Of a stretch of 21,769 nucleotides of DNA, positions 3,328 to 19,222 are shown piece by piece. The translations under genes and the position numbers were made by a program. Each line of letters begins with the position of its first letter. Position 1 is the first letter of the stretch. The notes under the pieces were generated by a model. The model was not told where the DNA came from, did no database searches, and saw only the letters and a program-made list of their open reading frames with translations. The DNA is from Mitosporidium daphniae (taxonomy: Eukaryota; Microsporidia). The stretch spans positions 1-21,769 of the forward strand of contig NW_013546140.1 of NCBI RefSeq assembly GCF_000760515.2, in the 5' to 3' direction.

Positions 3328-4845
3328 ATGATTTTTATGCAAAGGAAGCCAGCGGCCCATTCCGGAAAAGACAATGGGCTATTTTCTTGCTCTTCAACAT
3401 CGACAAATAATGAAGGTGCATCTTCTCTTTCATGGAAATTTTCGCAATGCTTTGGCGAAAGATCCGAGTCCATCGTCAATGGTTTAATTTGGATCACAAT
3501 TACCCTTTAGCTGACATTATTTCTGCCCTTGAGTTTGACGAGACCGGGGCATATTTGGCTACCGGTGATCGCGGAGGTCGTGCTGTAATTTTCAAGGACA
3601 CCCCCACAGGGTATGCGTTTTTTGCAGAGTTCCAATCCCATGAGCCAGAATTTGATTATTTGAGAAGTGTCGAAATCGACGAACAGATTAATCGGATTAA
3701 ATGGTGCAAGCAGTCAACGAGTAGGGATTTATTTCTGCTGACGACAAATGGTACCTTTTTGTGTTGTGGTTTATTGTAGACACAATAATAAAGCTCTGGA
3801 AAATTTCCAACAGACGCTCTGCGCGGTCGACTGCCTCTTCTTCTTCTTCATGTACTGCGGCAGACAGATTTGTTCCCGTTCATCAAAACTCTTATAAAGG
3901 GTCGCACTTGTTCCATATCAACTCGATATCTCCAAACATTGATGGTCTCACATTTCTGTCCGCAGATGACCTGAAGATCACTCTTTGGCAGTTGGAAAAT
4001 CCAAAAGCATTTATTTCCATGGTTGATTTGAGACCACAACCGATGGACGATATCCAGCAGGTGATCACAACGGCCATATTTCATCCACAATATACATATC
4101 AATTTCTATATGCAACCTCTCGGGGTATTATCCGAATTTGCGACACAAGGGTGTCCTCTCTGTGTGAGAGTTCTGGAGGTTATTTTACCCAACGTTTACT
4201 TTAGTGACGTTAAACAAGTGGAAACATGACGAGGACCGACATGACCCATTGAATGTGGACCGAAATCAGCCAATTCTTTTCGGGGACCTTTTTTCTACCA
4301 TTTCAGACGCCAAATTTTCTCCTTGTGGAAGATATGTGCTTGCCAGAGACTTCCATTCCCTTCAACTTTGGGACACACACAAGCTAAACAGGCCGGTGGT
4401 TGACATTCCGATACCACCAGATGTCTCAACTCGAAAACAGGTGCAGAACAAACTCCTGGACTGGTATGCAACTGAGGCCATCTTTGAGGACAAGTTTGAG
4501 TGCGGCTTTGATGGCACATCCAGGTTTGTGTACATTTGATGCTGCTTTTGCATATTTTCCATTTATTGTGTTTTCCTTGTTTTCTCGCATTAACCCTGCC
4601 CCAGATATATTCATACCGGTGCCTACAACAACATGAACTTCATTTTTGACTTGGAGGGCAATTTGGTGTCTTCGATTTTTTCGGATAAAAGCATTTTTGA
4701 GCAGAAAAAAGCGGCTCAAGCTGCTTCTCCGCCAGAGAAGGCATTTTCTTTTTCCAAAAAGGTGGTCACTAGTGTATGGAACCCAAAGGGAAACTCTATT
4801 GCCTCTGCGGCAGCGAATAACTTATTTATATTCCGAACTATCTAG
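3328..4845 (+). CDS. CDC55: PP2A regulatory subunit B (B55/Cdc55), 5 exons
   Basis: WD40 beta-propeller subunit that directs the PP2A phosphatase to substrates and controls mitotic exit and cell-cycle timing. Exons: 3328-3481, 3511-3750, 3780-4178, 4205-4523, 4605-4845. They give 450 residues, against about 447 in human. Introns are 29, 29, 26 and 81 nt, all GT-AG. Spliced junctions restore family motifs that the raw frames break: [11 protein letters not shown] at the first, [14 protein letters not shown] at the second and [12 protein letters not shown] at the fourth. Other B55 hallmarks are [50 protein letters not shown] and the C-terminal NNLFIF. The first in-frame ATG after a stop is 3328, giving a Ser-rich N-terminal extension of about 35 residues before the conserved part. 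It converges on MUS81 across 146 bp. Confidence 0.95.
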
Positions 4846-4991
4846 TCCATATAAGTAATGATAACGAAGATAAATATGTACGCTTTGTATATACCTATCT
4901 GAACCCTCTATCGTGATATGCCTACTGTGGACAACATCTGCTTGCATTGGTGGTGTGGACTCTTCCTTTAAAAGTGGAGTTTAATAATAAA

Positions 4992-5964
4992 TCAAGATCT
5001 GTACACCGAAGAATACACAAGACTGGAGCTCTTTTCGCCCAGTCGGCGTCCATTGGGAAGGCTCACATTGGCCAAAAGAAATTCTGCCTCTGCTTCACAC
5101 ACACACCTTGCCTCATCAAACGCAAGCCATAGACTTTGGTTAGAATCGATCGTACCTTTGAAGGGTGGGATATTTCCTGGCTATTGCCTTTGCCTTTTCT
5201 GGCGAAATGGAATGGATACAACACAACTGGGAGCAATAGATATCCCCCAGGGTCAGGCCGCTTCTCCTTCCATGTTTTTTGGAAAAGATCTGGAACAGCG
5301 AAACACCTTCGACTACATTTCCAGAGTGCACAGAAACAGGCAATCCCCCGGGATTTCCTGACAATTCTGGAAAAGCGGATGGTTCTGGCTTGATTTTGAT
5401 TGACTTTTGATGCAGAGATCCTTTAATCCACCGAGTCATTGCAATCAAAAACAAGACGGTCTCCTCAAAGGAAGAGGTCCTTTGGATCAGGAACTTGTCA
5501 TGGATCATTGTGCTTGACAAAATCGAATAAAGCGATTTTTGGGTATGGATACGGGCAGATGGTGTTGCCTTCAACGAAAGCGAGAGATTTTCAATCACAT
5601 ATATGACTTTGCCTATCCCAGAATTGTGAATTCTTGCCTAAATAAAATTGGTGCCAACTGAAAAACCTTTTGCTCGTCGTATCGCCCATCAATAATACTG
5701 GAGTATAAATCGTTTTCTCGCTTTCTCTCAACCAAATAGTCAAGTACAATTTCAACTGGATTTTCTACCGCTAACTATTAATCCCACATGTTCACCTTTC
5801 TCCCTACATAGCCACAAAAAATCTCCAATGGGAAGCGTTCGCATTGAATATGCAATATTATGGGCAGCTAGAGTGGTTTGCAGCGTAAGCAATGCGCCTC
5901 TCTGTAAGCACGCTTCCCTCTGGTCAATAACAAGAATCAAATCATAATTGCCATAAGCAAGCAT
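4992..5964 (-). CDS. MUS81: MUS81 structure-specific endonuclease, core-only, 4 exons
   Basis: Catalytic subunit of the XPF-family nuclease that, with an EME1/MMS4 partner, cuts branched recombination and replication intermediates. Exons (minus): 5796-5964, 5667-5770, 5156-5637, 4992-5133, giving 298 residues. Introns are 25, 29 and 22 nt. The nuclease begins at residue 6 ([11 protein letters not shown]), then IGDFLW (46-51) and, across the first junction, [14 protein letters not shown] with the ERKxxxD active site at 71-77. [19 protein letters not shown] and a C-terminal helix-hairpin-helix ([18 protein letters not shown]) follow. The protein then ends as other MUS81s do, in a short S-L-x-Y-S-like tail. 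Family members are usually 550-630 residues with an N-terminal HhH and winged helix; both are absent, and only 47 bp separate the ATG from the stop of the upstream NOP53. Assignment is secure; loss of the N terminus is as seen. Confidence 0.92.
5134..5155 (-). other. 22-nt spliceosomal intron in MUS81
   Basis: The frame running to KYPTLQ hits a stop soon after this point. Removing the 22 nt, which begin GTACG and end CAAAG, joins phase 2 to give [14 protein letters not shown]. This matches the conserved R/K-Y-S-T-x-x-S-L-x-x-A-Y-D-x stretch after the C-terminal HhH of MUS81. The intron contains CTAAC, a branch-point-like sequence, only a few bases from the 3' AG. It is the shortest intron placed in the window. 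Confidence 0.8.
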
Positions 5965-17476: not shown

Positions 17477-17840
17477 ACCACGGAACGCACAATAGAATCC
17501 TCATGTATGTGGAAATAAACCCCCCCCCATAAGATGCTTCATGGTGTGTGTCGTTCCAATTGCAGTTTAAATTGAAAACTTTTCGTTTTGGCGGCTACTC
17601 CCAAAGCTGATCGGATGTACCTCAATCGAGGGTTTATGGCAATGTATCAATGATTGTCTTTCTTACGGGATTGGAATGCGATCTTCATTCCATTATATTA
17701 CCTGCTATGGCTATAAGCCGTCGGGGTCTACGCTGCAAAGGAGGGTTCGAAAGCGGGATAATATTTTATCTTTTCCTTTTTGGTATTGTTTTCATTTGGT
17801 GATGATTTATGCACAATAATGGCGTCTTTAATAATTTCTT
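17477..17840. other. Intergenic, no gene recognised
   Basis: A 364-bp stretch between SMARCD and the O-fucosyltransferase-like gene. It holds the SMARCD AATAAA (about 17505-17510), a run of nine C residues just after it, a GGAATG...CATTCC inverted repeat around 17670, and a small GGCTATAAGCC hairpin near 17710. A GGTTCGAA near 17744 resembles a tRNA T-loop but has no matching stems. No tRNA, rRNA or snRNA could be supported. Confidence 0.4.
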
Positions 17841-19222
17841 ATGAACCGGATATTTCTCTTGTTGGCAACACTTTTTCTACATGTTTTCCCTGCTCCAGCG
17901 AGCAAGGTTCCCGAGTCCCGATTTGCATTATCACGCATGAATGATTCCTCCATTCATTTTTTAAAATATTTGCCACATTCCGGATTTTCCAATCAAATTA
18001 ATGAACTCAGCAATGCATTGCTAATGGCACGTCTGTTGAACAGAACTTTAATTCTGCCGCCCTTTTTTTTGGGCGAAAGGGTTACTTATCCATGGAAACC
18101 TTTTGACCGTTTAAACTCAACTCTATCCGATGCCTTTAGACAGTTCAGTTCCAATTTGAGCCACAATTTCTGGACGCTATTGGAAGTTTCCGAGTTTTTT
18201 CCACAACTTGCTGATTTTAAAGACGTAATGGCAATATCTTACTCCAATTTTAAAGATCGTTTTCCACAACCAGAGAATCTCAAATCCTACATCTTGAAGG
18301 ACTATACTCGATATAATTATAAGTAGCAAAATAGCATTTTTCTTTTAGGTATGTGGTTTCAGATGTCGATACAAATCGAAACCTGACTTGCACATGTGAA
18401 GGGAACGTTACAAAAATTCGGGTGTGGATGCGTATACGGAAAAGCATGGACCTCCATATTAAATATCCCATCTCCATAGCTTTCGGATACAGAGATGATG
18501 GTGCATTGAAAAACCAACACACTCCATCGATTCTTCATGTAGGCTCGCTTTTTGGACAAGGTCGAATAGATATGGCGTTGGATAGGGAAGAAAGAATTCA
18601 AGAGGTTTTTTCGCACAAAAAAGTCATTTCTAAGCTGCTATCCAACCCAACTATTCCCTGTTTCGATATTTTAGAGTCAAATTCGAATCCCATTCTAGGA
18701 AATGGAGTCTATTTTTCCATACACCTTCGAGGAAAATTTCCATTTTCTCGCTATGTCAAGCTAGTGGCCAAGTCTTCGTTGGATATTTTTTTTGGAAATG
18801 GCAGTCTTTATGCTGCCCTTGAGGCATGCCTTAATCGTGGAGGCGTGAAAAAAGACGCTTGTTCCATATTTGCACATGGCTTGCAGGACAAAAAATTAAT
18901 ATCCTCAAATGTATCGCTCTTTGTAGCCACAGACATGAAAAAATTTTCTAGGTCTGCTGAACGTGCTATACTGTCCAAGGGGTTTAAAAATATTATCACT
19001 CTTGAGGCTTTGATGACAGATTCTACCAGGAAATCAATTTTAGCCTGTTTGAAGGCTAGAGATGCAGCTCGACCCATTCCTATCGATTTGTTGTACCCGA
19101 TGTTTGACCAGTTGATGGCAGCGCGCGCTTTGGTTTTCACCGGCACTAGCGATTCTACATTCTCGCATTTCATCCACAAAATTCATTTGGCCCAATTGGA
19201 ATCCAAATTCGCCGACAATTGA
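17841..19222 (+). CDS. Secretory-pathway O-fucosyltransferase-like protein, 2 exons
   Basis: Exons 17841-18322 and 18349-19222 are split by a 26-nt intron whose removal gives RYNYKYVVSDVDTNRNL; the product has 451 residues. A signal peptide is evident (MNRIFLLLATLFLHVFPAPA). The stretch GFSNQINELSNALLMARLLN with RTLILPPFF is the nucleotide-sugar-binding opening of GDP-fucose O-fucosyltransferases (PF10250 type). A YFSIHLRGKFPFSRY stretch corresponds to their H-x-R motif region, and FTGTSDSTFSHFI to the C-terminal S-T-F-S motif. Several N-glycosylation sequons (NDS, NRT, NST, NLS, NGS) fit a luminal enzyme. It likely modifies secreted or surface proteins in the ER/Golgi. Which subfamily (POFUT1, POFUT2 or the wider fungal group) is not clear, and a catalytically altered relative is possible. 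Confidence 0.72.

Follow-up and report, generated by a model that had tools for sequence, protein, structure and literature searches.

Are the interruptions of 22-39 nucleotides (nt) that recur in protein-coding genes of Mitosporidium daphniae spliceosomal introns, and what would introns of this size ask of a spliceosome? The question is raised by a 21,769-nt stretch of contig NW_013546140.1 (positions 1 to 21,769; contig C128), hereafter called the window, by which we mean the whole stretch that was analyzed. It belongs to an assembly of 4.66 Mb over 147 contigs. In the taxonomy, M. daphniae is classified under Microsporidia incertae sedis, and it is an early-branching microsporidian that parasitises water fleas. 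Judged from its genomic sequence, we consider it very probable that this species carries numerous U2-type introns that have shrunk nearly to the minimum, mostly to 23-37 nt, next to a minority of approximately 80-160 nt. These introns would be removed from the mRNA, with intron definition as the most likely mode of recognition.

Nine genes rebuilt in the window contain 27 GT-AG introns, of which 24 measure 22-39 nt and the remaining three 81, 93 and 161 nt. A preliminary description of the same DNA had counted 28 introns, 25 of them in the short class; the class stands, both counts exceed ours by one, and the three longer introns reappear with the lengths given there. Retention would break every one of the 27 reading frames, either because the length is not a multiple of three (20/27) or through an in-frame stop (the other 7/27), so that no intron can be read through. 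Stop-free introns whose length is a multiple of three are invisible to this frame-based modelling. With approximately 16 kb of modelled coding sequence, the window reaches a density of 1.7 introns per kb. Support beyond reading frame and GT-AG ends is available for 22 introns, coming for six of these from a gene finder only. As GT-AG ends were imposed in the window models, the independent checks are a decoy run and those junctions that are fixed by homology.

Homologues of solved structure were compared with six of the genes, the INTS4-like and O-fucosyltransferase-like genes being left out; for AP-1 gamma, the comparison used residues 1-736 of 1006, corresponding to four of six junctions. A total of 14 of the 27 junctions lie inside ungapped alignment stretches (B55, 3/4; MUS81, 2/3; TRAPPC3, 1/2; SMARCD, 5/7; MDJ1, 1/1; AP-1 gamma, 2/6), and both PCNA introns, assessed separately, bring the homology-supported junctions to 16/27. 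The other junctions of the compared genes are located at or near gaps, in non-significant stretches or outside the alignments. In agreement with the earlier description, most of the introns are placed by reading frame together with continuity of the protein.

PCNA allows the exact acceptors to be assessed. The spliced model is 98% identical to the deposited M. daphniae PCNA protein, which for its part results exactly if introns of 37 and 49 nt are removed, with the same donors as our introns of 31 and 37 nt; within the ranges tried, this is the sole pair of ends that fits. The model with 31 and 37 nt outscores the combinations 37 + 49, 31 + 49 and 37 + 37 in 109 out of 109 homologues, each single replacement being worse too, although the 31 + 37 model had itself been the query that collected them. 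They comprise 240-300 amino acids and were taken from 118 of 120 listed matches, the deposited protein and protein P0150 having been set aside. A second intron of 49 nt is rejected on this comparison, as all 109 homologues prefer 37 nt, and by the same yardstick the deposited PCNA is wrong at both acceptors. P0150, an open reading frame of a relative on a 50,447-base contig, is 83% identical over 60% of the PCNA query. It has a 13-residue insert at the site of the second intron and apparently starts inside the first, which is consistent with introns at both sites in another species, and it retains as exon a stretch, VNIS. More generally, the metagenomic proteins P0150, P0002 and P0122-P0124 are 68-83% identical to their M. 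daphniae counterparts, so close and middle relatives exist for intron comparison. For B55, no protein above 46% identity and no M. daphniae B55 was found among the 120 of 260 matches listed. Since the deposited M. daphniae PCNA is present in the same database, the deposited B55 model is suspect; this single gene gives a sign that the model may be absent or broken, or may differ greatly in length. Some deposited M. daphniae gene models look wrong, probably owing to the tiny introns.

The same intron class is predicted outside the window. The gene finder combines a codon-pair score, GT-AG ends, site matrices and a small bonus for motifs resembling a branch site with a flat starting length prior; its first settings, which gave few introns or many long spurious ones, were dropped. 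The training sequence, a 187-kb sample of the 4.66-Mb assembly, came from 18 other contigs; contig C126 was excluded because its positions 180-10000 repeat window positions 1-9821 with 0 differences, indicating redundant copies in the assembly. In these 187 kb, 147 introns are predicted, 126 of which measure 23-37 nt. When applied blindly to the window, the gene finder predicted 14 introns, all identical to the models (14/14) and eight of them also homology-supported; it added none and missed 13/27. This agreement is only partly independent, because an earlier run of this program, with the window in its training set, had been the starting point of the models. Under a flat prior of 15-300 nt, and with the window included, 206 GT-AG introns are obtained, 67 of which fall in the best 12-nt bin (23-34 nt), while the best bins of 19 decoy dinucleotide pairs hold 11-29 introns; all runs began with identical preferences for the letters at sites and branch, and these suit GT-AG.

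Across the prediction set, again including the window, introns occur in 70 of 100 predicted genes and number 1.33 for each kb of coding sequence predicted, a density that is probably too low given the 13 window introns that were missed. Beyond the window, 23 proteins were predicted from genes with three or more short introns. A Pfam scan of six of these, selected as recognisable-looking, places 24 of 36 introns inside single domain matches. For instance, 161 residues of a Rab-like protein match Ras positions 1-161 of 162 once introns of 24, 26, 25 and 27 nt are removed. A shortage of introns with a length divisible by three was considered as a sign of nonsense-mediated decay, and dropped because the gene finder is blind to such introns when they are stop-free.

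The letters within the introns point to U2-type splicing. The short window introns (n = 24) have an A at +3 in 67% and end in TAG (19), CAG (3) or AAG (2), and the short introns predicted beyond the window end in TAG in 135 of 152 cases. When 175 of the 176 short introns were searched for a six-column motif, leaving out one that contains an N, yUnAy emerged; its gain was 67 bits, compared with 9.6-21.2 in eight shuffled sets, a result on which the branch-motif bonus of the gene finder bears. The motif is placed with a posterior above 0.5 in 118/175 introns, where the medians are 18 nt between the 5' splice site and the branch A and 9 nt between the branch A and the intron end. The introns hence look U2-type, with the order GTA..yUnAy..TAG, and the original description is right in that the models contain introns of spliceosomal type, most of them in the class of 22-39 nt (24/27, GT-AG ends, branch motif). 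The genome also encodes the matching RNAs. Rfam gives one match above cut-off for each of the U1, U2, U4, U5 and U6 RNA genes, so the check for U1 and U2 features suggested in the preliminary description turned out positive, pairing sequences included: U1 has ACTTACCT near its 5' end, U2 contains GTAGTA, its sequence for branch pairing, and U6 contains ACAGAG, which we take to be the canonical pairing sequences.

On this basis, U1 and then U6 would pair with GTA.. at the 5' splice site, U2 would pair with a yUnAy branch site approximately 18 nt downstream, and the 3' splice site would be the TAG approximately 9 nt past the branch A. This leaves little room. In human extracts, a distance of approximately 50 nt between 5' splice site and branch is needed for efficient splicing, and two helices in the human B complex lie approximately 21 nt apart (PMC6692369). 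A distance of 18 nt that includes both helices would be incompatible with the human B complex geometry, as would the introns of Paramecium and Stentor. With intron ends too close for this spacing, we infer that some assembly step is arranged differently. The notion of a cramped spliceosome is accordingly sustained as far as the space argument goes, given the median of 18 nt to the branch A; that the spliceosome is altered is not. U1, U2, U4, U5 and U6 are all present, and the pairing sequences of U1, U2 and U6 look canonical.

Human short introns depend on Smu1 and RED, and SF1 and U2AF recognise the branch and the 3' splice site. The RED_N and LisH_TPL (Smu1) profiles found no candidate in the genome, but neither profile matched in any of the 14 control genomes (0/14), so that absence of the genes does not follow. 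The SF1-HH (SF1 helix-hairpin) profile likewise gave no candidate in the genome, and the controls were also without a match, with the same limit on the result. Two matches to the KH-BBP profile look like other KH proteins; one of them, on contig C56, was considered as SF1 and dropped because by eye it looks like a KHDC4-type protein. The U2AF profile has 30 RRM-type matches, 0 of which exceed the cut-off. Among the candidates, a match on contig C78 was dropped as U2AF65, the stretch looking like an RBM39-type protein. At C78 30501-32500, this RBM39-like splicing factor has a serine/arginine-rich (SR-rich) N terminus and is itself apparently cut by short introns.

Several points count against reading these segments as near-minimal introns. 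They are known here from DNA alone. Five of the 27 are placed by frame and GT-AG ends only (8931-8961, 12081-12113, 15960-15997, 17321-17359 and 18323-18348), the N-terminal SMARCD intron 15960-15997 being the weakest model of all, and six others depend on the gene finder alone. A motif-free decoy test left GT-AG unseparated: it gave 14 introns of 20-39 nt for GT-AG, and a mean of 6.3 with a maximum of 15 for 255 other dinucleotide pairs. As this test was indecisive, it was followed by the decoy run with self-training and by the blind prediction of the window introns. Beyond the window, the TAG dominance and the length peak have partly been learned by the model. Finally, the acceptors implied by the deposited PCNA protein are different ones.

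The last point is also the argument for introns that are real but longer, in which a later AG would serve as acceptor and the 22-39 nt peak would arise from the modeller's choice of near AGs: the deposited PCNA is given exactly by 37 and 49 nt from the same donors. We nonetheless regard this as improbable, for the 31 + 37 nt model is the better one in 109/109 homologues, the VNIS stretch is exon in the relative P0150, 13 short junctions are homology-backed at their exact place, and the length peak appears under a flat prior and is absent with decoy pairs. The segments might also be no introns at all but indels from the assembly, lesions of pseudogenes or inserts that are kept in frame in the proteins, as could be argued from an assembly with a redundant contig and single Ns and from evidence that is confined to DNA. 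Such an origin is highly unlikely for segments that break the frame in 27/27 cases, start with GT, end with AG and share a recurring branch motif, the more so as genes built in this way, their conserved domains intact, also occur on 18 other contigs. The shortness itself, with a median of 18 nt to the branch where human extracts need approximately 50 nt (PMC6692369), could suggest that the introns are too short for a U2-type spliceosome and are removed by something else. To this we likewise give hardly any credence in view of the GT-AG ends, the yUnAy motif and the full set of five major small nuclear RNA (snRNA) genes; moreover, Encephalitozoon cuniculi splices GT-AG introns of 22-76 nt (PMC3629993), and Paramecium medians are 24-25 nt (PMC12862383). 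U2-type introns shrunk nearly to the minimum thus remain our preferred explanation.

The individual gene models are as follows, with homology referring to matches in PDB. The gene for PP2A regulatory subunit B55 (3337-4845, plus strand; E 1.1e-82) has four introns. Those of 29 nt at 3482-3510 and 29 nt at 3751-3779 have ungapped junctions and were predicted blindly, the 26-nt intron at 4179-4204 was also predicted blindly and falls at an alignment gap, and the 81-nt intron at 4524-4604 has an ungapped junction. On the minus strand, a MUS81-like nuclease (4992-5964; E 2.9e-30) comprises three introns: 31 nt at 5765-5795 (near an alignment gap, predicted blindly), 29 nt at 5638-5666 (ungapped, predicted blindly) and, at 5134-5155, the shortest of the window with 22 nt (ungapped). 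PCNA (258 amino acids; 7137-7981, plus strand), modelled with the help of the homologue comparison, is interrupted by 31 nt at 7456-7486, where the deposited protein implies 37, and by 37 nt at 7640-7676, where it implies 49; both are backed by 109/109 homologues and by blind prediction.

AP-1 gamma adaptin (8093-11412, minus strand; E 4.3e-60 over the residues compared) has six introns, five of which were predicted blindly. Of these five, the 161-nt intron at 10622-10782 and the 25-nt intron at 10300-10324 have ungapped junctions, those of 30 nt at 9469-9498 and 27 nt at 9292-9318 fall in a weak, gapped alignment region, and that of 25 nt at 8300-8324 lies outside the homologue comparison. 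The sixth, 31 nt at 8931-8961, is weakly supported, by frame and GT-AG. The hinge of the modelled protein (8700-8860, minus strand) contains repeated GLSPVLS-type units, and at 11416-11510, between this gene and the next open reading frame, three near-identical direct repeats of approximately 30 bp (TTTAAATTCTTCCCTGGACTTTAGTTCCAA-like) are found.

TRAPPC3/BET3 (11976-12675, minus strand; E 2.1e-22) contains a 25-nt intron at 12573-12597 with an ungapped junction and a weakly supported one of 33 nt at 12081-12113, placed by frame and GT-AG where the alignment is without significance. A DnaJ-type chaperone, named MDJ1 in the preliminary description (12800-14086, minus strand; E 2e-61), has a single intron of 36 nt at 13226-13261, with an ungapped junction and predicted blindly. 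The INTS4-like gene, whose name is likewise a label from that description (14459-15705, minus strand), is modelled with one intron of 32 nt at 15542-15573, predicted blindly. The most interrupted gene is SMARCD/BAF60-like (15928-17476, plus strand; E 5.5e-26), with seven introns. Ungapped junctions are seen for 23 nt at 16227-16249, 34 nt at 16715-16748, 93 nt at 16815-16907, 28 nt at 17009-17036 and 28 nt at 17170-17197; frame and GT-AG place the 38-nt intron at 15960-15997 and, with weak support near alignment gaps, the 39-nt intron at 17321-17359. The O-fucosyltransferase-like gene, again named after the original label (17841-19222, plus strand), is modelled with one weakly supported intron of 26 nt at 18323-18348, placed by frame and GT-AG.

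Two further features lie at the flanks of these genes. At 706-2445 on the minus strand, a glucose-6-phosphate isomerase gene is present without introns. Its listed matches comprise one close relative at 80%, followed by proteins at 49-54% identity, of which the named ones are betaproteobacterial (Methylophilaceae); the pattern may reflect gene transfer, or merely candidate selection. A short run of GGGTTA units occurs inside the contig at 19813-19830 and resembles a fungal or animal telomere repeat.

Taken together, these observations suggest that shrinkage of introns preceded their loss. Tentatively, and as a scenario that we rate somewhat below an even chance, introns would have shrunk to near the spliceosomal minimum toward Microsporidia while still numerous, and would have been lost later. 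M. daphniae would keep that stage, by extrapolation with thousands of near-minimal introns, canonical snRNAs and proteins with their own solution to the short distance between 5' splice site and branch, and in that case many genes, a substantial share of the total, would be mis-spliced in the deposited proteome of this much-used outgroup. The 1.7 introns per kb of the window would make the massive loss of introns later than the divergence of M. daphniae. For the mechanism of splicing, a relative of fungi in which approximately 18 nt separate branch point and 5' splice site, versus approximately 50 nt in human extracts, becomes of interest. For users of the genome, re-annotation is called for in view of the PCNA acceptors and the B55 listing.

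Very short introns have a precedent within the lineage. The introns of E. cuniculi span 22-76 nt and are confirmed by RNA-seq (PMC3629993), so that this species and M. daphniae are alike in being Microsporidia with very short GT-AG introns. E. cuniculi, however, has only 37 introns in its genome, while M. daphniae has 27 in one 21.8-kb window and 1.33 per kb in the sample; intron number, not shortness, sets M. daphniae apart. Numerous short GT-AG introns are shared with Paramecium, where medians are 24 nt in P. bursaria and 25 nt in P. tetraurelia and most introns are below 40 nt (PMC12862383). As Paramecium is a ciliate, its short introns have an independent origin, and M. daphniae genes still keep a minority of 80-160 nt. 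More extreme are mikrocytids with 16-17 nt, chlorarachniophyte nucleomorphs with 18-21 nt (PMC10245619) and Stentor with 15-16 nt (PMC9505925), which agrees with the comparable shortness that the preliminary description mentions for Stentor and nucleomorphs. All three resemble M. daphniae in extreme shortness, with genome reduction in the first two, but their length ranges are very narrow, whereas the M. daphniae class is broader, at 22-39 nt.

Intron density points to another relative. In a study of 644 fungal genomes, mean intron density is 0.01 per kb in Microsporidia, Rozella has 2.53, and the microsporidian ancestor, reconstructed from 15 microsporidian species, is placed at 0.22 introns per kb (PMC8476143); Mitosporidium is unmentioned in that study. 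Among the papers listed by our literature search, which did not extend to the genome paper, none on M. daphniae spliceosomal introns was seen. Rozella allomycis, of the sister lineage of Microsporidia, is intron-rich like M. daphniae. What appears to be new here is the combination, in this lineage, of high intron density with near-minimal intron length.

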